From: Methanosarcina vacuolata Z-761
Lineage (GTDB): Archaea; Halobacteriota; Methanosarcinia; Methanosarcinales; Methanosarcinaceae
Assembly: GCF_000969905.1 (NCBI RefSeq)
Contig: NZ_CP009520.1
Location: 992,001-1,056,000, forward strand
Direction: 5' to 3'
Length of the DNA: 64,000 nucleotides
The notes beneath the pieces are model-generated. The model made no database searches. It was given only the letters and a program-made list of their open reading frames with translations, and was not told the origin of the DNA. A program made the translations under genes and the position numbers. Positions 36,455-64,000 of the stretch are shown here, one piece after another (the stretch's first letter is position 1; every line of letters starts with the position of its first letter).

Positions 36455-37466
36455 GTGTTTTGACAATTTAATTATGGTGTATAGTATTTTGACATTTTTT
36501 CGTCAGCAATTTTTCGAGTAAACTTCCAGTTGATCTTACATTCATGTTCGTTTCTCCTCTTAGTCCATGAATCTACTTCATGAACCAAAGTACCCATGTT
36601 ACCAATCCGCCTTCCAGTGCATTCTATATCCATGACATTAATTTCTATTTCTGCTGCATTCAGCCAACTCGCATGTTTAGGAGTATAATGGAATTCTGCA
36701 TTTTTTAGAATCTTTTCTGTTTCTTCTTTTCCGAAAGCTTCTTCACGCAACTTTTCTTTGTGGGTGTTGAGATTATCCATGACCAAACGTGTAGTTTTTG
36801 TTTTCTAATTCCTTTCTACAAGTGCCTTAACAAAATGTGCAAAATCTATCTTAGTCCTTCTATTGGTAACCAAAGTCATCCTTTTTCCTGCTTTAAATTC
36901 TACTGCCATGAATATGTTTGCAGTTCCATTCCTAACATATTCATAATCATATTTTTCTGGACTTCCAGGTTTCATCGGAATGGACTTTCTCTTATCCCCA
37001 AGAATTTGCTTTGGTTTTTCGTCATACATATTAGAGGTTTTTCCGGATCATAGTCTTCTTCAAAGACTGAGAACGTCATACATTCTTTTCCTACATTCTG
37101 CGCCTATAGTTTGGATGCACCACATTCTCTTCGACTAGGGCTTATTTTTGCTTTTTTTAAAACAAGCCTGATGCTCTCTTTGTTTATTGTCTCAAAACCT
37201 TCTTTTTTCTTCAATTCTTCAGTCAGCAGTGCAAGTGTCCACTTTTTTCTTCCATCAGGAGGTGTAGTACATGCTTGAGCTATGATTTCTGCAATGTGTT
37301 TCTCTGTATATTTTATGGGTTGACCAGTCTCTTGCATCTTTCTGTCCTTTTTTAACAAAGTCTTGAAGGTATTGTTCTTCGTGATCTTTAAGTTTGATTT
37401 TCACCATTAAGAGTTATATAGCATTTAATGTATCTAAAAAACACCAAATTTAAATTGTCATGACAC
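36455..37466 (-). mobile_element. Decayed IS630-family element
   Basis: 1012 bases; ends GTGTTTTGACAATTTAAT and, from the right, GTGTCATGACAATTTAAA, between TA at 36453-36454 and 37467-37468. Its termini resemble those of the M2 MITEs, which makes an IS630 of this kind their likely parent. It interrupts the rfbB gene. Confidence 0.78.
36472..37407 (-). pseudogene. IS630-family transposase, broken, with two in-frame UAG codons
   Basis: Start region MVKIKLKDHEEQYLQDFVKKG at 37407, then an internal loss of the helix-turn-helix region. The main part reads GQPIKYTEKHIAEIIAQAC to SPSRRECGASKL, TAG at 37104-37106, then AQNVGKECMTFSVFEEDYDPE. A one-base deletion near 37040 shifts to DEKPKQILGDKRKSIPMKPG and so on to VKALVERN, TAG at 36805-36807, and KTKTTRLVMDNLNTHKEK. 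PKHASWLNAAEIEI holds the catalytic Glu. Frame damage beyond UAG makes it inactive. Confidence 0.75.
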
Positions 37467-37468
37467 TA

Positions 37469-37912
37469 GGGGTAGGGACTTGAAGGATTCAAATTATCTG
37501 TTTCGGTAAAAGAACCTTCCTTTGTGCTTCTGTAAACCTTATCAGTAGAGAGATTACTGAACTTTTTGATCTTATTCGCAAGGGCACTCTGAAGAAGGAC
37601 ACTTGTTCCGAGTACATTTCCCCTCACAAAGATTGAGCCGTCATCAATTGAGCGGTCTACGTGACTTTCGGCTACAAAATGGACAACCTTATCTGCTTTT
37701 TTCATGATTTCATTTACAATCACAGAGTCACATCTATCACTTTTAATGGAAGAGTAGTTTAAATTTGCCTCAATATTTTTGAAATCTGCGGGGTTTACGA
37801 CGTAGGTAAACTTATCAAGGTTTACAACTTCATAATCCAGATATTTTTTCAACATGTAACGGATAAAGTTGCTGCCTATGAATCCGCAGTCTTCTGCAAC
37901 CAGAAGTCTCAC
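37469..37912 (-). pseudogene. rfbB: dTDP-glucose 4,6-dehydratase, 5' half, truncated by IS630
   Basis: About 147 codons matching the N-terminal half of RfbB: FIGSNFIRYMLKKY, NPADFKNIEANLNYSSIKSD, VVHFVAESHVDRSI and ending TDNLNPSSPYP. The glycine-rich NAD motif is degenerate (LLVAEDCGFIG in place of LVTGGAGFIG), a sign of relaxed selection. The frame ends in a TAG contributed by the IS terminus. The other half of the gene is at 36195-36347. RfbB would have made dTDP-4-keto-6-deoxyglucose for rhamnose-type sugars; this copy cannot. Confidence 0.85.
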
Positions 37913-38091: not shown

Positions 38092-38230
38092 TTAGCAAAT
38101 AGTACCATCCATTAATTCCTGGAAACTTTTTTCCTTAAAGGGTACTTTGCCTGCTTTGAGAGTATCTACAGTACGTTTGTTTATATCAACCCCTACAAAT
38201 TCATGACCACTGTTTGAGAAAATCAGGCCT
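38092..38230 (-). pseudogene. wecC: Fragment of a UDP-N-acetylmannosamine dehydrogenase gene
   Basis: Reads SNSGHEFVGVDINKRTVDTL and then AGKVPFKEKSFQELMDG, the region after the first NAD-binding strand in UDP-sugar dehydrogenases. It is fused out of frame to the truncated wecB upstream, implying a deletion that removed the 3' end of wecB and the first codons of wecC. The intact family member in the window is at 63289. Confidence 0.7.
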
Positions 38231-39142
38231 CTCTGTATTATCCCGGAGCGCCACGCAAGGAACTTTGAGGATACAGCTTTCTTCCTCCACACCTCCACTG
38301 TCGGTCAGGATCATTCTTGCCCCGCTCTCGAGCTGTAAAAATTCTAGGTAGCCAAGAGGTTCAATCAGCCTTGTTCTTTTAGGGACTTCAACACCGAATT
38401 TTTTGATCATTTTCACAGTTCTAGGATGGGCTGGAAAGATGGTAGGAAGACCAAATTCTTGGTATATCTGCGAAAAGCCGTAAAGGATCCTGCCGAGGAG
38501 TTCTTTGCCGTCCACGTTTTCGGCACGGTGCGCTGTAGCTGCAAAATATTCTTTTTCCTTTAAGCCGAGTTCTTTAAGGATATTAGCTCCATTTTTAGAA
38601 ATCTCAAGGTTCTGATAGGCTGCATCAACGACCGTATTTCCTGTGACAAAGATTTTTTCTTCGGGAATACCTTCATTTAGCAGGTACTTTCTTGAAGTTT
38701 CGGTAGGGGTGAATAGGTAATCAGAAATGTGGTCTGTAATGATCCTGTTTGTTTCTTCGGGCATTGTGCAGTCAAAAGATCTCAAACCTGCTTCAACATG
38801 TCCGATTTTGATCTGAAGTTTGGAAGCTGCAAGGGCCCCGGCAAGGACAGTGTTTGCATCTCCCTGGACAAGTACAATATCCGGTCTGTCTTGAATCAGA
38901 ATTTCTTCGATGGCTACAAGCATTTTTCCGGTTTGTTTCCCATGTTTGCCAGCGCCGACGTCAAGATTATATTTTGCGTGTGGGAGTTTTAGCTGCTCAA
39001 AAAAGATTTTGTCCATTTCGTAGCTATAATGCTGACCTGTGTGGAGAATATAATAGTTAATGCCCTGTTTTTCACATTGCCTTATAATAGGGCTCATTTT
39101 TATAATCTCAGGCCTCGTGCCGAGAATGATTGCAATCTTCAT
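38201..39142 (-). pseudogene. wecB: UDP-N-acetylglucosamine 2-epimerase, C-terminally truncated
   Basis: 313 codons; intact family members have about 360-380. Matches WecB from MKIAIILGTRPEIIKMSP through LHTGQHYSYEMDKIFF, GHVEAGLRSFD, TAHRAENVD, LTDSGGVEEE to LRDNTERP, after which seven unrelated residues precede a stop. The lost part includes the C-terminal helices that close the active site. An intact paralog lies at 45109. The base composition is more GC-rich than the IS-laden surroundings, as expected of an older host gene. I judge it non-functional. Confidence 0.85.
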
Positions 39143-50517: not shown

Positions 50518-51666
50518 ATGAAAATACTACAGGTCATTCAATTTTTTTCTTCAAACCATGGGGGTTCAGCAGTAGTTCCCTATGAATTATCAAAAAATCT
50601 TCAAAAAAGAGGGCATGAAGTTACAGTCCTGACAACTGATTTTCAACTAAATAATGATTTTATTGATTCATTAGAGGGAGTAGAAGTTATTCCTTTTCAT
50701 TGTCAATTGAGTATAGGAGGCTTATTAGTTTCTCCTTCTATAAACAAGTACTTAAATGAAAATATTGCTAAATTCGATATCATCCACATGCACAACTTTA
50801 GAACTTATCAAAATATTATTGTTTATAAATATGCAAAAAAATATAATATTCCTTGCATTCTTCAGGCGCATGGCTCGGTATCTCGAATTGTCGAAAAAAA
50901 AAGTTTAAAATACATTTATGATGTGTCTTGCGGAAATCGATTGCTAAAAAGCGTATCAAATGTTATTGCTGTATCTAATGTCGAAGTTAATCAATATTTA
51001 CAAATGAATGTCCCTCTTGAAAAAGTGGTTGTTATCCCAAATGGTATAGATATTGGTTCATTTTCTAACTTACCTAAAAAAGGTAGTTTTAGAGCCAAGT
51101 ACCATATTAACCAGAAGCATATGATATTGTATTTAGGCAGGCTGCACGAAAGAAAAGGTATTGATTTTTTAATCAGATCATTTGCAGAGCTATTAACTGA
51201 AATGGATAATGTTATTTTGGTACTGGCAGGTCCAGATGATGGACATCTAAACAAGGCAAAATCTATAGTTGAAGAATTAAGCCTAAATGATAAAGTCAAG
51301 TTTACTGGTTTTATAAGTAGTGCTGAAAAACTCGAGGCATATATGGATGCTGATGTCCTGGTTTATCCCTCGGTTCTTGAAATATTTGGTCTTGTTCCAT
51401 TCGAATCTATTACATGTGGGACTCCAGTGATCGTAACTGATGATTGTGGTTGTGGTGAATTTATAAAAAAAGCTAATTGTGGATACTTGGTAACATACGG
51501 GGATATAATTGATTTGAAATACAAAATTAGGCAGATACTTGAGAATCCTGATATTGGAAGCAAATTTGTTGAGAATGGGAATAAATATATTACAAATAAT
51601 TTAACCTGGCCACTGATTTGCAAAAAAATAGAGACGCTTTATGAGGATTGTATTCATAAAAAGTGA
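50518..51666 (+). CDS. GT4-family glycosyltransferase
   Basis: 382 residues. FFSSNHGGSAVVPYELSKNL gives the N-terminal glycine loop; QAHGSVSRIVEKK follows; the donor domain has VVIPNGIDIGSF, LYLGRLHERKGIDFLI, LAGPDDGHLNKA, VKFTGFISSAEKLEAYM and EIFGLVPFESITCGTPVIVTD with the E-x7-E signature. Cytoplasmic glycan assembly; specificity unknown. Confidence 0.9.
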   Translation: MKILQVIQFFSSNHGGSAVVPYELSKNLQKRGHEVTVLTTDFQLNNDFIDSLEGVEVIPFHCQLSIGGLLVSPSINKYLNENIAKFDIIHMHNFRTYQNIIVYKYAKKYNIPCILQAHGSVSRIVEKKSLKYIYDVSCGNRLLKSVSNVIAVSNVEVNQYLQMNVPLEKVVVIPNGIDIGSFSNLPKKGSFRAKYHINQKHMILYLGRLHERKGIDFLIRSFAELLTEMDNVILVLAGPDDGHLNKAKSIVEELSLNDKVKFTGFISSAEKLEAYMDADVLVYPSVLEIFGLVPFESITCGTPVIVTDDCGCGEFIKKANCGYLVTYGDIIDLKYKIRQILENPDIGSKFVENGNKYITNNLTWPLICKKIETLYEDCIHKK

Positions 51667-51758
51667 ATGTGTTACAATCCATTTCGAGACCCTCGGAAGA
51701 CCCGGAAATATATTTTTAAACATATTTTTAGACAATGCTAATAGACGAAGGAGCATAT

Positions 51759-52877
51759 ATGGTTATCAAAAGAAAAAGTATTTGCGTAATCACTTTTCCA
51801 CCCATGAAAGCAGGGCTTACTCCATTATCTAATCTTATTGATATTTTAACTTCTTCTTTTAAAGAAATACATCTTATTACTGGAAATGATGGTTATAATT
51901 ATTTTACGAATAATAAATATATTCATTTGTATGGTATATTTCATTCCCAGGGTACTGGCAAAATTAATAGGATTAAAAATTATATCTTTACTCAGTTGAA
52001 AATAGCTCATGTACTTCTCAATATAATTGGCAAAATAGATGTATGCATCTTTTTTTTGGGAGGGGAAACGCTGACTTTGCCATTAATACCCGCAAAGCTA
52101 TTTAATAAAAAAACAGTTATTATACTTTCGGGCTATTCGATAAAATACGAAAAAAATACTCTATCGAAAATAGTTGCAAAATTATGTACTATAAACTTAA
52201 ATCTTGCCGATAAAATAATTTTATATTCCCCACGTCTTATTGATGAATGGAACTTAAAAAAGTATTCTCATAAAATTTTGATAGCTCCTCGACACTTTTT
52301 GAATTTTTCCAATTTTAAATTAAATACTGAGTTTACTCAAAGAAATGATTTAATCGGGTATGTGGGTCGTTTGTCTGAAGAAAAAGGCATTCTAAATTTT
52401 GTAAAGTCAATTCCTCTTCTTTTAAAGCAAAAGCCATTTCTGAATATTTTGATAATAGGTGATGGAGATTTGAAAAATAATGTTAAAAATTATCTTTCCA
52501 ATAATAGTCTTGAAAACAATGTAAAACTTGTCGGATGGAGTTCGAATGAAGACCTCCCTAAATATCTAAATTTATTAAAGTTATTAGTCATACCTTCGTA
52601 CACAGAAGGTTTGCCTAATGTCATGTTAGAAGCAATGGCTTGTGGCACACCTGTACTTGCAACAAAAGTAGGGGCAATACCTGACATAATTAAAGACGAA
52701 GAAACCGGTTTTTTAATGGAAAATAATTCTCCAGAGTGTATCGCAGAAAATATTATTCGTGCTTTGGAGTTTCCAAATCTTGGAAACATTGCGACTAAAT
52801 CCGAAAAGTTAGTAGAAAATAATTTTACTTATGAAAAAGCAGTCGAAAGATACTCAATAATATTCAATAAGATTTGA
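51759..52877 (+). CDS. GT4-family glycosyltransferase
   Basis: 372 residues from ATG 51759, chosen because GAAGGAG lies six bases before it; ATG 51735 is in frame but has no such site. Donor-domain motifs: GYVGRLSEEKGILNFV, LIIGDGDLKNNV, VKLVGWSSNEDLPKYL and TEGLPNVMLEAMACGTPVLA. Separated from the previous gene by about 90 bases, which contain no other gene. Probably adds one sugar of the same glycan. Confidence 0.89.
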   Translation: MVIKRKSICVITFPPMKAGLTPLSNLIDILTSSFKEIHLITGNDGYNYFTNNKYIHLYGIFHSQGTGKINRIKNYIFTQLKIAHVLLNIIGKIDVCIFFLGGETLTLPLIPAKLFNKKTVIILSGYSIKYEKNTLSKIVAKLCTINLNLADKIILYSPRLIDEWNLKKYSHKILIAPRHFLNFSNFKLNTEFTQRNDLIGYVGRLSEEKGILNFVKSIPLLLKQKPFLNILIIGDGDLKNNVKNYLSNNSLENNVKLVGWSSNEDLPKYLNLLKLLVIPSYTEGLPNVMLEAMACGTPVLATKVGAIPDIIKDEETGFLMENNSPECIAENIIRALEFPNLGNIATKSEKLVENNFTYEKAVERYSIIFNKI

Positions 52878-53963: not shown

Positions 53964-55751
53964 ATGTTTTCCAAAAATGATCATTTTAGTATTTCTAGAT
54001 TTAATAAAATAATGTCAATATTTGGATTCATGTTAATACTTTCGACATTATCTATTATTATTCATAACTCTTCTGCAAATGTCTATAACTTTTCAATATA
54101 TGAATCATATCCAGAATACTTTTGGGCACTTATTATTATAGCTCTCTTTATAGGTCAGATTATACTACTGAACAGTGCATTTTCTAAATCTAAAACTAAT
54201 TCCTGGATAGCTGGATTTCTAATTATTATTATCTCAGACTTAATTTTGTTACTTATGCCAATTATAAAAGGTTATTTTGTAAATGGTAGGTATGATGCTT
54301 TAACTCATATTGGTTATATGGTTGATATCGGGAAATATCATAATATTGGTTCGAACCCCTATCCCATACTTCATATATGGGGTTTTGTACTAAATTATAT
54401 GTCCGGTCTGAGTTATAATGATATATCTATGTTAATACCTGCTTTTCTTTCATTATTCTATATTTTTTCATGGTATTTATTAGGGAGATTAGTATTCAAA
54501 AAGAATAATATGATATTATTTATGTTATCCATGTCTTCAATATTATTATTTGGTAGTAAAAATAGCATGCTTAGTCCAAACGGAGAAACACTTCTTTTTG
54601 TTCCTTTTTTTCTTTACATTTTTTTCAAATCAAGAGTAGCCAAGAAACCTATACCCTACGAAATTTTATTAATATTAATTAGTTTTTTTGTTGTGTTTTC
54701 TCATCCATTAATATCAATTTTACTTATAATGACTCTTATAATCTCAGATTACCCAATTTTCACTACCGTTAAATGGAGGAAATCAAATTATATTGTTTTA
54801 ATAATCTTATGTTGTTTTTTAATGTGGTCTTCTTATATTCCTATTTTGACTAACAATATAAAACTAATATTAGATAATATGATTTTATATGATGGAACTG
54901 GTTCCGAATTAGGAAGATATTCTAATTCTCTCAATTCTATTCATATTCCATTTTTATATATAGTTATAATAGGTTTGAGACTTTATGGTTTAGAGGTTTT
55001 GTTAGGTGTTCTTTCACTTATTTGCATATCCTTAGTATTTATATTTTGGAAAAAATATCATGTAGAAGTAGACTACTACCATAAATTTTCAATAGTAGGC
55101 TGGCTATTTTTTGTACTTCTTTCATTGTTAATCTTAATTTTTGCTGATTCATTTGGTTTTATAAGAATTTACCAATATTCTATACTTTTTTCTATTATGC
55201 TTATTCCCTTATCAATAAATATGTTATTAGAAAGAACTGAAGTAAAAGAAAAAAAACATCATTTTAAATTGTTGCCGCTATTGTCTCTTTTTTTACTACT
55301 AATTACATATTTTTCAACATATAATTTGTTTTTCGCTCCAATTAACTTAAATATAGACCAACAAACTCCAGAAAGCGAATTTTCTGGAATGGAGGTATTT
55401 TATCACGTAAAAAATAATTCACAACCTACCTTAGAACTTGGAATTACAAATTTTAGAGTTTATGACGCAGTTTATGGTGTGGCAGAAGGCAAAAAAGAAA
55501 AGATACGCTATACGAATCCCGTTATCGAGCACTTTGACTACACAAGTAACTCTTCGATAAACAGTTATTATAATGAAACATCATACCTTTTAATTAGCGA
55601 TGTAGGTAGATATCAAAAACAAAAACTGTTTCCAGATCTTAAAAGCGAATGGGATTTTACTCCTAAGGATTTTAATAAATTAAACAATGATGCAGGAGTT
55701 ACTAAATTTTACTCCAATAAATTCTTGGAAATGTATATAATTAACCATTAA
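53964..55751 (+). CDS. Polytopic membrane protein, GT-C-like putative glycosyltransferase
   Basis: 595 residues: about 12-13 hydrophobic segments to residue 460, then a soluble C-terminal domain of about 130 residues. After the third helix the loop GYFVNGRYDALTHIGYMVDI places an acidic residue where GT-C enzymes have their catalytic Asp, followed by NPYPILHIWGF, a common pattern in dolichol-dependent mannosyltransferase-like proteins of archaea. It is the counterpart, in layout, of the protein at 23998. The likely role is extracytoplasmic sugar transfer from a lipid-linked donor, by inference. Confidence 0.7.
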   Translation: MFSKNDHFSISRFNKIMSIFGFMLILSTLSIIIHNSSANVYNFSIYESYPEYFWALIIIALFIGQIILLNSAFSKSKTNSWIAGFLIIIISDLILLLMPIIKGYFVNGRYDALTHIGYMVDIGKYHNIGSNPYPILHIWGFVLNYMSGLSYNDISMLIPAFLSLFYIFSWYLLGRLVFKKNNMILFMLSMSSILLFGSKNSMLSPNGETLLFVPFFLYIFFKSRVAKKPIPYEILLILISFFVVFSHPLISILLIMTLIISDYPIFTTVKWRKSNYIVLIILCCFLMWSSYIPILTNNIKLILDNMILYDGTGSELGRYSNSLNSIHIPFLYIVIIGLRLYGLEVLLGVLSLICISLVFIFWKKYHVEVDYYHKFSIVGWLFFVLLSLLILIFADSFGFIRIYQYSILFSIMLIPLSINMLLERTEVKEKKHHFKLLPLLSLFLLLITYFSTYNLFFAPINLNIDQQTPESEFSGMEVFYHVKNNSQPTLELGITNFRVYDAVYGVAEGKKEKIRYTNPVIEHFDYTSNSSINSYYNETSYLLISDVGRYQKQKLFPDLKSEWDFTPKDFNKLNNDAGVTKFYSNKFLEMYIINH

Positions 55752-55964: not shown

Positions 55965-57128
55965 ATTAAAATATTGTATCTAATCTCGGCAATGGCATAT
56001 AATTCCGGAAAAGGTGGCCATTATTATAGTTTAAGAACAACTTCTGAAGCAATTAGTATGAAGTTTGACTGTACAATAGTTGTTATTGGAACTAAAGAAT
56101 CCCCAGTGATAAATCAGTCTAAACTAAAAGTATATAACTTAGTATACAAAAACCTAGGTTTTTTTCAAGTAATGAAAGACCTGAAAAAAGTTGTTGATCT
56201 TGAGTGTCCTGATGTTATTCACAGTTTTGATGAGGATGCTTTCTTTTTTGGAAGTTTACTTAGTTTTGTTTACAAAAAACCATATATACATACGAAATGT
56301 GGGGGTGCCAATCCAAGAATAGCTCTCCCAAAAGTTAATAATTTAATACTATACTCCCAGGAAAATTTTAAATATTATCAGTCTTCAAGAAGATTTAAAA
56401 AAGCAAACATTCAGTACATTCCAAATAGAGTAGGGACAATTAATCAAAATTTTTATAAAATAAATAATCTCAAGTCTTCAATAGGCAGTGATAGCTCAAA
56501 AATCTTTTTGATAATCTCAAGGATCGATGAATCTAAAAAAAATGACATATTACAGACAATAAACCTTGTAAAAAGATTAAATATTGAGGGCGTAAAAGCT
56601 AAATTGATAATTGTCGGAGTTATTCAGGATGAAAAAACTGGTGAAGAAATTAAAACCACTGTCGATAGCAACATATATCTATTTACAGATGATGAATATG
56701 CAATCAATGCCAGTCAATTAATTGATGTTGCAGATTTTGTTGTGGGGGGAGGAAGAAGTTTTATGGAAGCTGCATCAAGAGGTAAGATAATGTTATGTCC
56801 CTTAAAGAATTCAAAGTATCCTTTACTAATTACCGAAAAAAATTTTGACAAAGCATTTAATCAGAATTTTTCAAGTAGGATAACTATTGACGACTTTGAT
56901 CCAGATGAAAATTATCAACAAATATCTCAGGCATTAATAGATGAAAAGTATGCAAATGAAATTACAATATTTATAAAATCGGCTTCGAACAAGTACTTTG
57001 AGATTGACAGTCAACTCACGAAATACTACGAGATTTATAGTAAAATAAAATACAAGCCTTGTTTCAATATCTTTGATCTGACGGCCCAGTTTTTTAGACT
57101 GAAGGTATGTAATAAATTAACGTTTTAA
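55965..57128 (+). CDS. Glycosyltransferase (GT-B, GT4-like) with apparent AUU start
   Basis: 387 residues if started at ATT 55965. The frame opens after TGA 55953-55955, and ATT AAA ATA TTG gives (I/M)KILYLISAMAYNSGKGGHYY, a typical first strand and glycine loop. GAGGG at 55954-55958 is six bases before this ATT. TTG 55974 is the first usual start but is too far from that site and would remove the strand. The later part (FLIISRIDESKKNDILQTI, LIIVGVIQDEKTGEEI, VVGGGRSFMEAASRGKIML) fits a GT-B donor domain, though the E-x7-E motif is degenerate. Confidence 0.77.
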   Translation: MKILYLISAMAYNSGKGGHYYSLRTTSEAISMKFDCTIVVIGTKESPVINQSKLKVYNLVYKNLGFFQVMKDLKKVVDLECPDVIHSFDEDAFFFGSLLSFVYKKPYIHTKCGGANPRIALPKVNNLILYSQENFKYYQSSRRFKKANIQYIPNRVGTINQNFYKINNLKSSIGSDSSKIFLIISRIDESKKNDILQTINLVKRLNIEGVKAKLIIVGVIQDEKTGEEIKTTVDSNIYLFTDDEYAINASQLIDVADFVVGGGRSFMEAASRGKIMLCPLKNSKYPLLITEKNFDKAFNQNFSSRITIDDFDPDENYQQISQALIDEKYANEITIFIKSASNKYFEIDSQLTKYYEIYSKIKYKPCFNIFDLTAQFFRLKVCNKLTF

Positions 57129-57178: not shown

Positions 57179-58507
57179 TTAGTTCGATTTTGATGATACA
57201 TTTTTTCCCTTAATAATTTTCAAAATTACATTTAACAGAAAATCAAAATCATTTTTATTACAAATAAATAACTCTCTTAAACTCAACTGAGTAATTCGTA
57301 GATAATAATATAAAATTGATATCGATGCAAGCGTATAACTAACGGTTGAAGCAAAAGCAGCACCACAACCTCCAAAATCTGGTATTAAAATTATATTAAG
57401 CACTATATTGATCAAAACGGCTGGTAAAAACAATTTTATAGTAATATCAGGTTTCCCTCTACCAGCCAGATCCATGTTAATAATTTTAAAAAAACTCATC
57501 ATAACTATTCCAGGTAATAGTATTTTTAGCATTTTGATACTTGGAATATATTCTTCTCCATACAAAAAAGGAATTATATACCCACTTGCAAAATACAAAA
57601 ATACTGATCCGAAAAGGACAACAGGGAAAATAATCCTTACCATTTTTGCAATATCTTGAGAGAATTTATTTGAATCCTTTGCGTTTGCACTATACGCAAA
57701 AATAACTAGCCCAAATGCAGCTGGTAGCTGCCATAATAATTCAGCAAAACCAACTCCTATTGTATATTGACCTATTTCTGCAACATTACTCAAGTGTTCA
57801 AGTATGATTATGTCCACTCTATAATTTAGATTCAAGATAAACAATGACAGAGCATATACAGATCCTATAGAAACCATCTTTTTAATTATTTCAGATTTAC
57901 AGCATATCTTCAAAGAATATTGACTCTTAATAGACAAGACTGCATATATAGCAAGCCCCATTTTGGCAATCAGTGTGGCTAAAACTGCGCCTAATATATA
58001 TAATTTTATAACAAATACAAAAAAGATAATGAGTACAAAATTAATTATAGGTACTAAATACGTTATTTTATTGAATTTATTTATTTTTTGTTTGCCGATT
58101 AAAATTCCAGTAAAGTAATTTATAGTCAGATCTGCAGGAACTGTAAGCGAAGCAAGTAATATTAACATCAGGTTATAATCTGGATTTTTAGTGTACGCAA
58201 TTATTGCAACTGAAGTTAAAACTCCAATTATGCTCGATGAAATAAGTAATAATAATGTTACACCTACAATGTCTGACTCTGAATACTTTTTCCTACCAAG
58301 ATAATAAACAGTTGCCTGACGCATTCCCATACTTAAAAGGCTAATCAAAATTGTAGGATAAACTAAAAGAGCCGTGAAGGCTCCTCTTCCCGCAGGTCCA
58401 AGCCATCTCGCAAGTAGTACTCCTGATACGAAACCTATAATCAATGTTAACATCTGAGTGCCAAAAACAGATATACCATCTTTTGCCAAACTGTAGTTCT
58501 TTACCAT
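57179..58507 (-). CDS. Oligosaccharide flippase (Wzx-like, MOP superfamily)
   Basis: 442 residues from ATG 58507 (MVKNYSLAKDGISVFG), with AGGG seven bases upstream; a TTG 21 bases earlier would overlap the previous gene. About 12 membrane segments. GTQMLTLIIGFVSGVLLARWLGPAGRGAFTAL is the usual N-terminus of Wzx/O-antigen flippases, and PDFGGCGAAFASTVSYTLAS lies in the C-terminal part. It is the last gene of the murA-murB operon, so its cargo is probably the lipid-linked glycan made with those enzymes. Confidence 0.88.
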   Translation of the reverse strand: MVKNYSLAKDGISVFGTQMLTLIIGFVSGVLLARWLGPAGRGAFTALLVYPTILISLLSMGMRQATVYYLGRKKYSESDIVGVTLLLLISSSIIGVLTSVAIIAYTKNPDYNLMLILLASLTVPADLTINYFTGILIGKQKINKFNKITYLVPIINFVLIIFFVFVIKLYILGAVLATLIAKMGLAIYAVLSIKSQYSLKICCKSEIIKKMVSIGSVYALSLFILNLNYRVDIIILEHLSNVAEIGQYTIGVGFAELLWQLPAAFGLVIFAYSANAKDSNKFSQDIAKMVRIIFPVVLFGSVFLYFASGYIIPFLYGEEYIPSIKMLKILLPGIVMMSFFKIINMDLAGRGKPDITIKLFLPAVLINIVLNIILIPDFGGCGAAFASTVSYTLASISILYYYLRITQLSLRELFICNKNDFDFLLNVILKIIKGKNVSSKSN

Positions 58508-58520
58508 TTTATACCCTACG

Positions 58521-59069
58521 TTATTCAATTTTTTTTGCAGGAATTCCTACGGCGGTTGTGTTTTTAGGTACATCAGTCAGTACAACTGAATTTGCACCAA
58601 TTACAGCATTTTCATGAACAGTTATTCCACCTATAACTTTTGCCCCAGAATAAATTATTGCTCCTTGTTTTATTGTGGGGTAGGACTTTGGTTCGCCTTT
58701 ATGCCCATGGCTTCCAAATGTAGTTTGTTGAAAAATTGTAACTTCATCTTCAATAATTACTCCCGCTCCAATTATTACGCCTGAAGGATGAGTAAATTTT
58801 ATTCTATTACCTAACTTAGCTCTATAATCTATTTCATTGCCGCCAAGAATATATTGTCTATATTTAATAAGAGGAAGAGCTCTCCTGGCCATTTTTGATT
58901 TTAGATAACAATATCTAGAAATACGATACCAAAATATCAGTTTAAAAGAAATATTCAAAGAAAAGATCACAACCTTACCCAATAAATTTTTGCCACCGTA
59001 GAAAATTAAATCTTGATTTATATCTTTCAAGCAGGTCTTTAAACTGTATTCAGGTTCATCTTTTTTCAA
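58521..59069 (-). CDS. Serine-acetyltransferase-like hexapeptide O-acetyltransferase
   Basis: 182 residues from TTG 59069, overlapping the end of murB by 14 bases. Hexapeptide repeats form the C-terminal half (IKFTHPSGVIIGAGVIIEDE, VTIFQQTTFGSHGHKGE, AIIYSGAKVIGGITVHENA and VIGANSVVLTDVP). The catalytic His is in FTHPSG. The fold is that of CysE, but the short N-terminus and location argue for acetylation of a sugar or lipid-linked intermediate rather than serine. Donor acetyl-CoA by family. Confidence 0.83.
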   Translation of the reverse strand: MKKDEPEYSLKTCLKDINQDLIFYGGKNLLGKVVIFSLNISFKLIFWYRISRYCYLKSKMARRALPLIKYRQYILGGNEIDYRAKLGNRIKFTHPSGVIIGAGVIIEDEVTIFQQTTFGSHGHKGEPKSYPTIKQGAIIYSGAKVIGGITVHENAVIGANSVVLTDVPKNTTAVGIPAKKIE

Positions 59070-60018
59070 TTATTCCAACCTCATGCAACGATCTGAGACT
59101 TCCCAGCTCTCCTAAATACTTTACTTCGCTTTCTAAACAAATTCCATAACGTTGATATACAATTTTTCGAATATATTGGGCAATAGAAATCACATCTTTA
59201 GCTGTAGCATTCCCCAAGTTTACTATAAAATTGGCATGCTTTTCCGAAATTTGAGCACCACCTATTTGATAACCTTTTAAACCTGCTTCTTCAATTAACT
59301 TTCCAGGAGGTGCAACAGTGTCGTTCATAACAGGATTACTTAAAAAAACAGATCCACAATTTGGATAATTAAGTGGAAATTTGTTCTTACGTTTATTTAG
59401 TATATTTCTCATTTCGGACTTTATTCGTTCTTTTTCTCCAATTTCACATTCTAACTCAATTTTACAAATTATATAACCAGAATCCTGAAATACTGATTTT
59501 CTGTAAGAAAAATCACATTCTTTTTGAGAAAAAGATATCAAATTATAATTCCTGTCAATAACCCATATTTTTTTGACAATATCTCCTATGCATTTTCCAC
59601 CGCTTCCCCCGTTCATAAAAATAAGTCCGCCAAGAGTGCCTGGAATTCCAATAGCATGTTCAAGACCTGATAAACCATTATCTGATAATATTTTTGCAAA
59701 TTTTGGAGTCCAGATACCTGCTTCTGCGCAAACCTTTTCACCTTTAATAGTATACCTGGAAAAATTATTTCCCAACTTTACAATGATTCCACGAAAACCT
59801 TCATCAGAAAAAAGTAAATTTGTTCCATTTCCTATAATGGCTGTGGGAATTTTCATTAAATCAGCGTATTGTATAATTTCGATTATCTGTTCGATATTAT
59901 ATGGTTCAATTAAAACGTCTGCAGGACCGCCAATACGCCAGCTACTATGTTTTGAAAGAGGCTCTTTTAAATAAATATCTCCTACATTTTTATTAATCAA
60001 ATCATTTATTTTATCCAT
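59056..60018 (-). CDS. murB: UDP-N-acetylenolpyruvylglucosamine reductase
   Basis: 320 residues, normal for MurB type II. Reduces the enolpyruvyl group of UDP-GlcNAc-enolpyruvate to the lactyl ether of UDP-MurNAc, using FAD and NADPH in the cytoplasm. Motifs: KHSSWRIGGPADVLIEP, IGNGTNLLFSDEGFRG (FAD site), GLEHAIGIPGTLGGLIFMNGG, and near the C-terminus NYPNCGSVFLSNP (Ser of the proton-donor loop), AGLKGYQIGGAQISEKHANF and the final Glu in CLESEVKYLG. All match bacterial MurB. It starts 8 bases inside the 3' end of murA. Finding it in an archaeal context without other peptidoglycan genes in view is unusual. Confidence 0.92.
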   Translation of the reverse strand: MDKINDLINKNVGDIYLKEPLSKHSSWRIGGPADVLIEPYNIEQIIEIIQYADLMKIPTAIIGNGTNLLFSDEGFRGIIVKLGNNFSRYTIKGEKVCAEAGIWTPKFAKILSDNGLSGLEHAIGIPGTLGGLIFMNGGSGGKCIGDIVKKIWVIDRNYNLISFSQKECDFSYRKSVFQDSGYIICKIELECEIGEKERIKSEMRNILNKRKNKFPLNYPNCGSVFLSNPVMNDTVAPPGKLIEEAGLKGYQIGGAQISEKHANFIVNLGNATAKDVISIAQYIRKIVYQRYGICLESEVKYLGELGSLRSLHEVGIIEKR

Positions 60019-61273
60019 ATCTCACATTTCCCCCCAATGAAATTAATTTTTCCATAAAATTGTCGTATCCTCTTTCAATCTGCCAGGCATCTGAGATCCG
60101 GGTCTCGCCTTTTGCCACCAGGCCAGCTAACGTTAATGAGATACCAGCTCGGAGATCAAGAGCTCTTACTTGAGCACCATTAAGGGGATTCCCACCGATG
60201 ATTTCCAGTATATTACCATTGATATTATATTGCAAGCCCATTTTGGCCAGTTCACTTGCATAACAATATCTACCAGGAAAACGCAGGTCAATAATTTTGG
60301 AACTACCTTTTGCACAGGCGCCATAAACGGCAAATAAAGGTTGCATATCTGAATTAATTCCCGGGTAAGGGCCGGTACTAATCTCTATTGGATAGGGGGT
60401 CCCTCCTCTGACGATCAGGCTATTTTCACCAATATAGTACTTTGCTCCACTTTCACGAAGATGTATTAATGGAACTTCAAGATCTCGGAAAGGAAAATTG
60501 ATAATTTCAATATCTCCACCTGTAATTACTGTAGCAATTAACCAGGTAATCGCTTCCATATTATCAGGAATTACAGAATATTTAACCCCATATAATTTTT
60601 CTACCCCTGTAATTTCTATATGTTCCTGTCCAAATACCTGGATTTTTGCACCCATCTTATTAAGAAAATTAATTAAATCTAAAATTTCAGGACGAATATG
60701 AGGGTTCCAAACTCTAGTTATACCTTCAGCCAAACATCCACATATTATTGAATTTTCAGTAGCACCTGTCGAACGAATAGGTAAGAATATATCGGTGCCT
60801 TTTAGCCCATCTTCTGCTTTGGCACAAAGCATATCATTTTCAACCCAAACTTTTGCCCCCATGTTCCTGAGAATCATTTCGTGCAAATCAAATTTTCTCT
60901 CTCCGAGATCACACCCTCCGGGAAGGGGGACTTTCGCTTCGCCTATACGGCTAACTAAAGCACCTAATACAAGTAGGGTGTTACGAATTGAACGTTTTTT
61001 CCAGTTAAGAACTGATAAGGGAGTTTCTTTCTCAGAAATGATTATTTTGTCTTCACTTATATCACAGTTTTTCCCAAGAACTTCTAGCATACCAACGTGA
61101 ATTTGAGCATCAAGTAACTTAGCAGGATAATTTGTAAGTTCTATTTTTTCCTTTGTTAGCAATGATGCTGCAAGGAGCCTTAAAGCGCTATTTTTTGCTC
61201 CACTTATTTTTACTTTCCCTTGAAGTTTAGATGGTTGAATAATATATTCACATGTTGGCACATTCATTTTCAT
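60011..61273 (-). CDS. murA: UDP-N-acetylglucosamine 1-carboxyvinyltransferase
   Basis: 420 residues from ATG 61273 (other nearby starts: GTG 61276, ATG 61267). Transfers enolpyruvate from PEP to the 3-OH of UDP-GlcNAc. The catalytic features of bacterial MurA are there: KISGAKNSALRLLAASLL with the Lys-Asn pair, PGGCDLGERKFDLHEMIL with the Cys equivalent to E. coli Cys115, TGATENSIICGCLAEG, PDNMEAITWLI with the Asp region, and RALDLRAGISLTLAGL with the Arg equivalent to 397. This separates it from the related AroA (EPSP synthase). It is the first step of muramic acid formation; overlap with murB means the pair is translated together. Confidence 0.92.
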   Translation of the reverse strand: MKMNVPTCEYIIQPSKLQGKVKISGAKNSALRLLAASLLTKEKIELTNYPAKLLDAQIHVGMLEVLGKNCDISEDKIIISEKETPLSVLNWKKRSIRNTLLVLGALVSRIGEAKVPLPGGCDLGERKFDLHEMILRNMGAKVWVENDMLCAKAEDGLKGTDIFLPIRSTGATENSIICGCLAEGITRVWNPHIRPEILDLINFLNKMGAKIQVFGQEHIEITGVEKLYGVKYSVIPDNMEAITWLIATVITGGDIEIINFPFRDLEVPLIHLRESGAKYYIGENSLIVRGGTPYPIEISTGPYPGINSDMQPLFAVYGACAKGSSKIIDLRFPGRYCYASELAKMGLQYNINGNILEIIGGNPLNGAQVRALDLRAGISLTLAGLVAKGETRISDAWQIERGYDNFMEKLISLGGNVRYG

Positions 61274-61320
61274 CACTTTCTTATTTAATGACCTTTTAAA
61301 TCTGTTGTAGATTATTTAAA

Positions 61321-62256
61321 TCAATTCTCATTTATGAACCACTTTGAATACATCTCAAGCCCTTCATCTATTTTGATTTTTGGTTTCCATCCGATCTCGT
61401 TCCATGCTTTTTGATAACTTGCAAGGGTATGGTCTGCATCACCTTTTACAGGAGATGTGTAGACAACTTCCGATTTGCTATTATTTATTTTTATGATTTT
61501 TTGTGCAAGTTCATTAATGCTGATAGAATGCCCACCACCAATGTTATACACACCTTCTCCTTTTTTCATAAAGATCAAATTTGCCTCAATTATATCATCA
61601 ATATAAGTGAAATCCCTTGTTTTTTCACCATTTCCAAATATAGTTATAGTTTCATTATTCAAAGCTGATCTTGTAAATATGCTGATTGCAAGATCTGGTC
61701 TCATTCGTGGTCCGTAAACAGTAAAATATCTTAAAGATACACTTTTTAAACCATAAAGCTCGTCGAAAACCCGGCAATAGTGTTCTGCTAACAGTTTCGA
61801 AACTCCATAGGGAGATAAAGGTTGATTTGGATGTTCTTCATCGAAAGGGAGATATTTTACCTTTCCATATACAGAAGAAGAAGAAGCATTTATGATCTTT
61901 TTTACATTAGAGTCCATGGCCGCTTTAAGGAGATTCAAGGTTCCAGTGGCATTTACGTCGTGAGATTTCATGGGATCAGTAACCGAGGTCCTAACTCCCG
62001 CTTGAGCAGCCTCATGAAAAACATAATCTACTTCATCTAATATGCTTTTCAACAAATGTTCATCTCTTATATCTCCTTCAACGAGTTCAAAATTCTTATT
62101 TTCCATGAAAAAATGTATGTTTTTTCTTTTTATTGAAGGATCATAGTAGCTATCAAAATTGTCCAGACAGATAACCTCATTCCCCAATTTTAATAAACGG
62201 TCAATAATATGAGAGCCTATAAATCCTGCTCCACCAGTTACCAATATTTTTTCCAT
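61321..62256 (-). CDS. UDP-glucuronate/UDP-glucose 4-epimerase-like SDR
   Basis: 311 residues. ILVTGGAGFIGSHIIDRLL binds NAD; LDNFDSYYDPSIKRKNI is the stretch typical of UDP-glucuronate 4-epimerases; VFHEAAQAGVRTSV, ASSSSVYG, YGVSK (Tyr-Lys) and RYFTVYGPRMRPDLA follow. Likely makes UDP-galacturonate or a related sugar for the polymer built by this operon. Gap to murA is only about 48 bases. Confidence 0.85.
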   Translation of the reverse strand: MEKILVTGGAGFIGSHIIDRLLKLGNEVICLDNFDSYYDPSIKRKNIHFFMENKNFELVEGDIRDEHLLKSILDEVDYVFHEAAQAGVRTSVTDPMKSHDVNATGTLNLLKAAMDSNVKKIINASSSSVYGKVKYLPFDEEHPNQPLSPYGVSKLLAEHYCRVFDELYGLKSVSLRYFTVYGPRMRPDLAISIFTRSALNNETITIFGNGEKTRDFTYIDDIIEANLIFMKKGEGVYNIGGGHSISINELAQKIIKINNSKSEVVYTSPVKGDADHTLASYQKAWNEIGWKPKIKIDEGLEMYSKWFINEN

Positions 62257-62323: not shown

Positions 62324-63256
62324 TTACTGGACATTTTTAAACCACTCTACTGTTGCAATTAATTCTTTTTTAAATTCATTTTTCGGATTATACCCGAATT
62401 CTTTAGCTTTTGATATATCTGCCAGAGAATGTTTGATATCTCCAGGTCTTGGTTCTGCATGTATTGATTTTATTTCCTTTCCCAGTATTTCATTAATGTA
62501 ATCGGCTAGTTGATTAATTGTAATTCTTCTACCACATGCTATATTGAAAATTCCAGTTTTCTTAGACTCACAGGAAAGAATATTCGCATCAACAACGTTT
62601 TTGACAAAAGTGAAATCTCTGCTTTGTTCTCCGTCTCCGTATATCACGGGACTCTCATCGTTTAAAATTGAAGTTATGAAGTTTGGGATTACAGCTGCAT
62701 ATTGAGAATTTGGGTCCTGACGTGGGCCAAAAACGTTGAAATATCTTAAGCTGACTGTTGGAAGGCCATAAAGGTCTTGAAAAACCCTGCAGTACATTTC
62801 TCCGGTTGCTTTTGTAATTGCATATGGAGACATCGGGTTTATTGGCATATCCTCTCTTTTTGGGAGAGTTGGAGTGTCACCATATACCGAAGAGGACGAC
62901 GAAAATATTACTTTCTTAATTCCAGCGTCTTTTGCAGCTATCAGAACATTCAGTGTTCCTGTGACATTCGAGTTATTTGAACTAAAAGGATCTTTCACGC
63001 TTCTTGGAACACTGGGAATTGCTGCAAGATGGAAGACATAGTCCTTGTCTTTGAAAATTTCTGTTAAGTTCAAGTCTACTATACTACCTTTTATTACAGT
63101 TAAATTTTTGTGGTCGAGTAGATGTCTTATATTTTCAATCTTACCTGTAGATTCATTATCAATAATTGTTACTTCATTATCTTCAAGTAGTTTCTCAGCA
63201 AGATGGGAACCAATGAACCCCATTCCACCTGTGACTACTACATTTTTAGTTTTCAA
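62324..63256 (-). CDS. UDP-N-acetylglucosamine 4-epimerase-like SDR (WbpP/GalE type)
   Basis: 310 residues from TTG 63256, with GAGGGGA four bases upstream; the longer frame from 63286 would not use that site. [19 protein letters not shown] (NAD), [38 protein letters not shown] (Tyr-Lys), [19 protein letters not shown] and [10 protein letters not shown]. The [14 protein letters not shown] block is characteristic of WbpP-like enzymes acting on N-acetylated sugars, so UDP-GalNAc (or its acid) is a probable product. Confidence 0.85.
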
Positions 63257-63288
63257 ATAATCCCCTCTGTAAAATTGTAATTGCAAAG

Positions 63289-64000
63289 TTATGAAAGCTG
63301 TTGCAGTTTTCTTTTCTGGACTTCTTTTTTGATTTGCTGAATATGGCCTCTTCCAAGGGCTTTAACTTCACAGCCAAGTTCGAAATATCTTTTGATATTC
63401 TCATCCGATAGTATTCCAAAACAGTCAATAACTGCAATAGGCCCGCCTGCCATCTCTACAATAGTTTCCGGCTCAAAATTAAGATATTCCTTGTGTGGAA
63501 CTGCGAGGATCAGGGCCTCTATATCTTTAATTGCTGCTGGAAAATCACTTTCGATTTTTAACTCTGCCAGACCTTCCTGGTTTCTGAAGAAATGTTTCCA
63601 GGAATGACCAGATGCTGGATATGTATCCTGGTTTTCCATCTCGTACCAGTGATCTACGTATGGATCATGAACACGAATCTCAGCGCCCATTTCAGTCAGT
63701 TTTCTGACTACAATTTCACTTCCACTGTATCTTGTATCGCCAACATCCTGCCTGTAACTGGCCCCGCAGATAAGAACATCTGCTCCGGCTATATAGTGCC
63801 CCATATTCCGAAGTGCATCTCGAGTAAGTTCGGCTACGTGAAGAGCTCTTGTGTCGTTTACATCAATTGCTGTGGGGGTGATCTTGAAGACCTCATCTCC
63901 ATCCTCAAAGCCCAGAATATGCTTATAAGCCCAGTAACCCAGACCTCCGTCTTTTGGAAGGCAATAGCCTCCAATCCCTGGGCCTGGGAAGATTATATTA
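63289..64000 (-). CDS. UDP-N-acetyl sugar 6-dehydrogenase (5' end outside window)
   Basis: The C-terminal 237 codons, open to the window edge (the 64000 side is the missing N-terminal half). [20 protein letters not shown] contains the catalytic Cys of UDP-glucose/UDP-ManNAc dehydrogenases. [20 protein letters not shown] and [11 protein letters not shown]-like segments (read [11 protein letters not shown]) belong to the UDP-binding C-terminal domain. Such enzymes oxidise C6 of UDP-ManNAc, UDP-GlcNAc or UDP-Glc to the uronic acid with two NAD. WecC-like by overall pattern, and WecB is in the window, but the exact donor cannot be fixed from this half. First visible gene of the minus-strand operon. 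Confidence 0.85.

Follow-up and report, generated by a model that had tools for sequence, protein, structure and literature searches.

Genes of the murAB locus

The window analysed here is a 64,000-nucleotide stretch of the Methanosarcina vacuolata Z-761 chromosome, and a murA-like and a murB-like gene lie near its end within a run of genes on the reverse strand. The features of this region, in window coordinates, are as follows.

50518..52877 (+): two GT4-type glycosyltransferases
53964..55751 (+): multi-span membrane protein, 595 aa; no Pfam hit; glycosyltransferase/ligase-like by topology only
55974..57128 (+): glycosyltransferase-like gene, convergent to the operon, 384 aa; no Pfam hit
57179..58528 (-): polysaccharide flippase, Wzx/MATE-like, 449 aa
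58521..59069 (-): CysE/EpsC-like hexapeptide acetyltransferase, 182 aa
59056..60018 (-): murB-like FAD reductase, putative surface-glycan type, 320 aa
60011..61276 (-): murA-like enolpyruvyl transferase, putative surface-glycan type, 421 aa; GTG start
61321..62256 (-): NAD-dependent sugar epimerase 2, GalE/TviC-like
62324..63286 (-): NAD-dependent sugar epimerase 1, TviC-like, closest to UDP-GlcNAcA 4-epimerases
63289..64000 (-): nucleotide-sugar 6-dehydrogenase, C-terminal part; the 5' part lies past the window end

The murA gene (with in-frame ATG alternatives to its GTG start at 61273 and 61267) and murB lie where an earlier sequence-only reading of this DNA had placed them, and they overlap by 8 nt. 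Further overlaps join the acetyltransferase gene to murB (14 nt) and to the flippase gene (8 nt). As that reading had described, the acetyltransferase, flippase, two epimerases, and UDP-sugar dehydrogenase are all co-directional with murAB. The complete dehydrogenase has 580 aa (G000:C2:1055292-1057031).

The family matches of both proteins are far beyond chance. MurA matches Pfam EPSP_synthase (PF00275) over its full length with 249 bits (cut-off 22.8) and belongs to the NCBIfam subfamily NF006873 (398 bits, cut-off 297); its top PDB match is a solved MurA (E=6e-78). MurB belongs to the equivalog families TIGR00179 (247 bits, cut-off 144.5) and NF010480 (322 bits, cut-off 259), with a solved MurB as its top PDB match (E=1e-62). 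An AlphaFold2 model of MurA from a two-sequence input was unusable (mean pLDDT 37) and lends no support to the function proposed below.

The known catalytic residues had been read as intact in both proteins, and alignment bore this out for all of them. The catalytic and PEP-binding set of MurA comprises K28, N29, R98, C122, R127, D310, R336, D374, R376, and R402, the counterparts of E. coli K22, N23, R91, C115, R120, D305, R331, D369, R371, and R397. Catalytic Cys115, Lys22, Asn23, Asp305, and Arg397 (E. coli numbering) are invariant, together with the PEP-binding Arg residues, in all 10 sub-lineage members aligned (see below). MurB keeps R173, S223, and E298, which do not vary across the 10 EPS-type and nine murein MurBs compared. 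The archaeal MurA shares with murein MurA (TIGR01072; E. coli MurA, 1UAE) the fold family, a full-length alignment, and the catalytic/PEP residues, including the Cys targeted by fosfomycin, while MurB shares with its murein counterpart (TIGR00179; type II, S. aureus 1HSK) the catalytic Arg, Ser, and Glu and the FAD-binding domain.

A putative surface-glycan sub-lineage

Murein MurAs nonetheless differ from the MurA found here in their sugar loop, in sequence (at most 39% identity), and in their scores against the TIGR01072 equivalog. The M. vacuolata protein reaches 382.3 bits and falls below the cut-off of 392.7; relatives of this type score 321-382 and the Haematobacter protein 300, whereas ten murein MurAs score 516-612. 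This shortfall proved meaningful, and a gap of more than 130 bits separates the type from the murein MurAs. The archaeal MurB passes the murein MurB family cut-offs yet sits in its own clade: trees of both proteins, a check proposed with the sequence-only reading, united the MurBs of this type with support of 100/99 and split MurA from murein MurA with 100/100. MurA is 59-65% identical to proteins of alphaproteobacterial plasmid polysaccharide loci and of one haloarchaeon, and MurB is 38-46% identical to its nearest relatives.

The MurA and MurB of the locus thus form a separate sub-lineage rather than being ordinary murein enzymes, a distinction that is new here. Both have the marks by which we define this surface-glycan sub-lineage, namely a separate clade, type-specific residues, and a glycan locus. 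It was otherwise found only in one haloarchaeon and in polysaccharide loci of bacterial plasmids, the bacterial relatives having been sampled from plasmid records. The plasmid pairs of Rhizobium gallicum, Rhizobium CC1099, Agrobacterium MA01, and Qingshengfaniella belong to the same sub-lineage and are likewise encoded by adjacent genes in a glycan setting; for Haematobacter, only MurB is counted in this set. The Agrobacterium MA01, Haematobacter, and Rhizobium loci carry genes for a sugar dehydrogenase, epimerase, glycosyltransferase, flippase, or O-antigen ligase. These pairs differ from the archaeal one in that their hosts are bacteria, presumably with murein enzymes as well, and in that they usually have a GT2 partner. 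A related GT2 glycosyltransferase follows murA-murB in Rhizobium, Qingshengfaniella, and the haloarchaeon, whereas none was found in this genome at E<=1e-15.

Partners within the pair are not fixed. The haloarchaeon combines a MurA of surface-glycan type with an ordinary-type MurB, and Haematobacter combines a MurB of surface-glycan type with a divergent MurA. Such mixed pairings suggest that the partners are interchangeable, which fits one shared intermediate.

The sequence-only reading had raised the possibility of a transferred bacterial cassette. Transfer still seems probable, but in place of a murein pair, what moved would be MurA and MurB from a sub-lineage dedicated to surface glycans. 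A single origin of the archaeal MurAs was absent from the best tree and from the bootstraps (0%), although the AU test did not reject it (p=0.198). A viral origin was considered and dropped, as viral contigs held no relative of this MurA; phage records contained murein-type copies only (about 39% identity or less), and the two MurB matches in viral contigs were a short fragment and, at the end of a contig, an ordinary bacterial-type gene beside secA.

Predicted product and its alternatives

We propose that the product of the pair is a sugar nucleotide with a lactyl ether, destined for a surface polysaccharide, and a conversion of UDP-GlcNAc to UDP-MurNAc is slightly more probable than not. The enolpyruvyl group that MurA takes from PEP would go to the 3-OH of a UDP-linked N-acetylhexosamine, with UDP-GlcNAc the likeliest candidate, and MurB, using FAD and NAD(P)H, would reduce the enol ether to a D-lactate ether; the outcome would be UDP-MurNAc or a sugar nucleotide very similar to it. 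No peptide would be added to the lactyl sugar, Mur ligases being absent. A glycosyltransferase of the island would then add this acidic product to a lipid-linked repeat, alongside the uronic and amino sugars that the co-transcribed dehydrogenase and epimerase supply, and the operon flippase would export the repeat for an exopolysaccharide or S-layer glycan. The MurA/MurB pair itself was probably acquired by transfer. Taken more broadly, it is on balance probable that a group of Methanosarcina and at least one haloarchaeon build a lactyl-ether sugar (MurNAc or a new uronic/galacto relative) into a surface glycan, and, as part of the same reading, that a dedicated MurA/MurB sub-lineage moves between bacteria and archaea. 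Our literature searches found no paper describing this archaeal pair, and no biochemistry or characterised product for any member of the sub-lineage.

The reading first suggested from the sequence, an amino sugar with a lactyl ether that goes into a surface polysaccharide, remains the best one. UDP-GlcNAc as the exact substrate is not deducible from the protein, for the loop next to the sugar in murein MurA has been exchanged: where E. coli has T326-V327-F328-E329-N330-R331-F332, all ten members carry L-R-F-P-G-R-Y, and R332 is invariant at the position of E. coli V327. Nearby, A92N, V161R, V163T, and T304S (E. coli numbering) are also fixed in the sub-lineage. That the loop is changed in every member counts against the proposed reaction in that the sugar may not be GlcNAc, as does the absence from this genome of the GT2 partner of other loci.

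A real though lesser possibility is the same chemistry on another UDP-sugar, such as UDP-GalNAc, or UDP-GlcNAcA or UDP-GalNAcA formed by the operon dehydrogenase and epimerase; the product would be a lactyl sugar other than muramic acid, and a muramic acid test would miss it. Consistent with this alternative, the loop has changed throughout the ten members with the PEP and catalytic residues untouched, and MurB carries matched type-specific residues (H121, L132, G137, S139, and F214) plus an insert; compared with murein MurB it has MNGGS for MNAGA, Phe for Gln at 214, and this insert around P237-P238. In Methanosarcina, Agrobacterium MA01, and Haematobacter, murAB also has dehydrogenase and epimerase genes as neighbours. 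However, no sugar dehydrogenase was seen within the stretches available for the Qingshengfaniella and haloarchaeon loci, the haloarchaeal MurA works beside an ordinary-type MurB, and between archaeal and bacterial copies the identity of the dehydrogenases and epimerases is just 23-31%, so that they are not one inherited module. The dehydrogenase-epimerase module also turns up in Methanosarcina genomes that lack murAB and is therefore no guide to the substrate. A uronic-acid substrate deduced from the adjacent dehydrogenase is weakened on both counts, the bacterial versions not being orthologous.

It is unlikely that the chemistry itself differs, with the MurA homologue using a non-sugar or sugar-phosphate acceptor, or the MurB homologue reducing something else, so that no lactyl-ether sugar is made. 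Evolution has turned the MurA fold to other acceptors, as in NikO, an enzyme of this fold whose enolpyruvyl acceptor is UMP (PMC6801904) and which is a distant match to the MurA here, and the changed sugar-side residues would agree with such a shift. Against it, MurA retains UDP-binding R127 and D130 (E. coli R120, D123) and likewise D310 (E. coli D305), and in every locus of the sub-lineage, nearly all of them glycan loci, murA adjoins the gene for a reductase in which the MurB catalytic residues are complete.

Distribution, murein, and known systems

The murAB cluster is syntenic in five of the 31 Methanosarcina genomes, M. spelaei among them and the only one of the named genomes scanned in which it was found. 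Here it lies on the 4.5-Mb chromosome, and the syntenic copies are on large contigs or chromosomes. The genes at 55974..57128, 53964..55751, and 50518..52877 adjoin the operon in all five. Epimerase 1 is present in 5/5 clusters; epimerase 2 occurs in G000 and M. spelaei and is absent from G151, G152, and G153. The acetyltransferase gene is frameshifted in G153 and a mere remnant in M. spelaei, and is thus dispensable. The reading frames of murA and murB are intact in all five genomes, and their dN/dS values (0.10-0.18 and 0.16-0.27, respectively) place both under purifying selection. Their presence in the same operon in five genomes, together with the low dN/dS, argues that both are in use.

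Recently transferred or decaying bacterial genes without function, or contamination of the assembly, are accordingly very improbable as explanations. The patchy distribution (this MurA type was found in 1/294 sampled genomes of the haloarchaeal class) and the acetyltransferase lesions in 2/5 genomes would suit them; the five-genome synteny, intact frames, dN/dS of 0.10-0.27, and full catalytic sets speak against them. Bacterial DNA in the assembly, an outcome that the sequence-only reading had named as fatal to it, is ruled out by the same synteny and selection and by the lack of murC-F. PADLOC gave no match that would point to anti-phage defence.

MurA and MurB catalyse the first committed steps of murein synthesis, yet a murein-like, peptide-bearing polymer is just as improbable, and we reject it: the 99.99% complete assembly holds no match to Mur_ligase_M (PF08245) or Mur_ligase_C (PF02875), which bacterial controls do match, the enzymes fall outside the murein lineage, and the related plasmid copies sit in polysaccharide loci. 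The absence of Mur ligases, first noticed in the window, extends to the whole genome and implies that no murein-type peptide is made. A search for D-Ala-D-Ala ligase domains returned only generic ATP-grasp matches, as in 14/14 control genomes, and so does not bear on the question.

To our knowledge, no MurNAc-type surface glycan has been described in archaea. Textbooks list the absence of muramic acid among the marks of archaea, and it helped define the domain; the 1977 study of M. barkeri walls by Kandler and Hippe reportedly also found none. By its title, as cited in PMC11111885, that study (Kandler and Hippe 1977) concerned a 'Lack of peptidoglycan', which weighs against the proposed product. 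A suggested link to methanochondroitin found no support: this is a GlcA/GalNAc polymer whose genes are unknown and whose published repeat has no lactyl sugar (PMC12369344), and murAB is confined to 5/31 genomes of the genus.

MurNAc in surface glycans is already known from bacteria, and the archaeal pair would be a variant on that theme. It is proven in the lipooligosaccharide of Psychrobacter arcticus (PMC4515632), and that paper also cites the Vibrio vulnificus capsule and the isomuramic acid of Proteus penneri. These glycans contain, outside murein, the kind of lactyl-ether amino sugar proposed here, although their hosts are bacterial. The pseudomurein pathway of Methanobacteriales and Methanopyrales (PMC11915815) similarly reuses murein-type enzymes of bacteria in an archaeal envelope, but in reverse: it has Mur-type ligases and talosaminuronic acid without a lactyl ether, whereas here MurA and MurB occur without ligases.

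If the pair works as its sequence suggests, the muramic-acid mark would fail for some Methanosarcina, and an archaeal envelope would contain a fosfomycin-sensitive step. The 'MurA/MurB' annotation also splits: members of the polysaccharide-locus sub-lineage are now labelled as murein enzymes and mislead pathway inference. The motifs IRSTGATEN, NPHIRPEI, and DLRFPGRY (MurA) and MNGGS (MurB) may serve as markers for finding lactyl-sugar glycans.

A MurA/MurB pair in a polysaccharide locus

The right-hand edge of the window is taken up by seven minus-strand genes. Listed from that edge inward, they encode a nucleotide-sugar 6-dehydrogenase (580 aa; the gene crosses the edge), two epimerases, the first of them TviC-like, then MurA, MurB, a CysE/EpsC-like acetyltransferase and a Wzx/MATE-like flippase. 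From murA through murB and the acetyltransferase to the flippase, successive genes overlap by 8, 14 and 8 nt.

60011-61276, minus strand, murA (421 aa)
59056-60018, minus strand, murB (320 aa)

Glycosyltransferase genes lie in facing orientation to this operon. To its left extends a long island of polysaccharide genes, which encode two UDP-GlcNAc 2-epimerases, more epimerases, GT4 glycosyltransferases and a second flippase. The island shows signs of gene turnover, namely a short dTDP-glucose-dehydratase-like fragment (37466-37912) and a shortened UDP-GlcNAc 2-epimerase (38201-39142), with transposase-like genes nearby.

The sequence-only reading had described the catalytic residues of both enzymes as intact, which alignment with E. 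coli MurA and murein MurBs bore out: of the E. coli MurA positions that serve catalysis or PEP binding, all 10 that were checked are conserved, including the fosfomycin-target Cys115, as are the catalytic Arg, Ser and Glu of MurB. Each protein also matched a solved bacterial structure from end to end (E=6e-78 for MurA, 1e-62 for MurB) and, judged by these comparisons, both look functional. Among the five Methanosarcina genomes with the operon, dN/dS values were 0.10-0.18 (murA), 0.16-0.27 (murB) and 0.04-0.13 (dehydrogenase); these genes are therefore maintained by selection.

Separation from the murein enzymes

Our main new result is that, by sequence, the pair is a sub-lineage apart from the murein enzymes, here called the surface-glycan type. 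In a tblastn search of 72,556 plasmids, MurA was 59-65% identical to proteins of Rhizobium, Qingshengfaniella and Agrobacterium MA01, and at most 39% identical to all other listed matches, among them the murein-type copies of E. coli, S. aureus and Rhizobium. MurB had the same relatives plus Haematobacter (38-46%) but is less sharply set off from murein MurB, which reaches 39.7% identity. These bacterial relatives were sampled from plasmid records only. Against NCBIfam's murA equivalog model (TIGR01072, cut-off 392.7 bits), surface-glycan-type members scored 321-382 bits and ten murein MurAs 516-612. A very divergent MurA on a Haematobacter massiliensis plasmid (L021:7632-8945), 35% identical to the Methanosarcina MurA and encoded beside a surface-glycan-type MurB, scored 300. 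The trees of both proteins proposed earlier agree: surface-glycan-type MurB forms a single clade (support 100/99), and surface-glycan-type MurA separates from murein MurA at 100/100, with long branches.

Predicted substrate and partner genes

Relative to murein MurA, all ten surface-glycan-type MurAs have T326-V327-F328-E329-N330-R331-F332 replaced by L-R-F-P-G-R-Y (E. coli numbering), together with A92N, V161R, V163T, A185P, A186H and T304S. These positions cluster at what we take to be the UDP-GlcNAc site of E. coli MurA (1UAE). Surface-glycan-type MurB has its own residues (H121, L132, G137, S139, F214 and an insert that contains Pro-Pro). The chemistry is therefore conserved but the sugar side is not, which would suit the same reaction on another UDP-sugar, an alternative that we consider rather unlikely. 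Partners are mixed in two loci: a haloarchaeon (G363) pairs a surface-glycan-type MurA with an ordinary-type MurB, and Haematobacter pairs a surface-glycan-type MurB with the divergent MurA. Such mixing is expected if all share one intermediate and counts against a very different sugar. On balance we lean towards conversion of UDP-GlcNAc to UDP-MurNAc as the predicted reaction.

Bacteria are known to use MurNAc in molecules other than murein: it was identified by NMR in Psychrobacter arcticus LOS (PMC4515632), in a paper that also cites MurNAc in a Vibrio vulnificus capsule and isomuramic acid in Proteus penneri as earlier cases. No lactyl sugar is part of the methanochondroitin repeat, and the genes for making that polymer are not known (PMC12369344). 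The literature searched, mostly outside subscription journals, contained neither an archaeal MurNAc-type surface glycan nor a description of this MurA/MurB type, a slight hint that both are new.

The Agrobacterium, Haematobacter and Rhizobium loci are polysaccharide loci, which between them encode an O-antigen ligase, a tyrosine autokinase, a dehydrogenase, an epimerase, glycosyltransferases and a flippase; in the stretch seen of Qingshengfaniella, the only glycan-like genes are murA, murB and a GT2 glycosyltransferase. A GT2 gene directly follows murB in Rhizobium, Qingshengfaniella and the haloarchaeon (33-35% mutual identity), and a relative (36-43%) adjoins the Haematobacter pair.

L022:9936-10925, GT2 (bacterial locus)
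L042:11264-12271, GT2 (bacterial locus)
L023:9963-10934, GT2 (bacterial locus)
L017:2821-3834, GT2 (haloarchaeal locus)
L017:2821-6006, surface-glycan-type murA, ordinary-type murB and GT2 in a row

This GT2 is a candidate transferase for the lactyl sugar. No relative was found in the M. vacuolata genome at E<=1e-15; another transferase must therefore serve there, perhaps one conserved beside all five operons.

Separately, the small Paracoccus aestuarii plasmid pAES7 encodes an 845-aa fusion of a polysaccharide pyruvyl transferase domain and a full MurB (FAD_binding_4 and MurB_C; L024:2492-5029), and also carries a UDP-galactopyranose mutase.

Distribution and history of the locus

The MurB_C domain occurred in 5 of the order's 186 genomes, all within Methanosarcina (31 genomes). 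The proposed search for archaeal murA/murB neighbours recovered five Methanosarcina genomes, M. spelaei MC-15 (NZ_LMVP01000457.1) among them, plus the haloarchaeon, which had the only surface-glycan-type MurA beyond Methanosarcina in a phylum sample of 394 genomes (1 of 294 in its class). Two more genomes of this phylum encode distant MurB-like FAD proteins of ~290 aa, at L018:4963-5832 (G466) and L019:4607-5482 (G453), with no MurA within the fetched stretch. Assembly contamination is ruled out by synteny of the operon in all five Methanosarcina genomes. Murein synthesis is likewise ruled out: the local lack of Mur ligases noticed earlier holds across the M. vacuolata assembly (4.56 Mb, 99.99% complete), where neither ligase domain (PF08245, PF02875) was found. 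Controls were positive in all ten bacteria, and the control Methanosarcina acetivorans matched neither domain.

Three other Methanosarcina genomes (G155, G159, G160) carry the dehydrogenase-epimerase module without murAB, a pattern suggesting that a variable glycan locus received murAB by insertion. We infer the direction of transfer from the bacterial nature of the MurA/MurB pathway. The 5' two thirds of murA (window 60350-61276; same stretch in L009-L012, other Methanosarcina loci) fall into two allele classes (~80% versus 90-98% DNA identity) that switch inside the gene; in the same comparisons the dehydrogenase is 86-97% identical, and the second epimerase gene varies in presence in this stretch. 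Allelic exchange of this kind is seen at surface-polysaccharide loci. The acetyltransferase is frameshifted in G153 (L009:9543-10095) and a remnant with a stop in M. spelaei (L012:9406-9519); despite this, murA and murB are intact in both.
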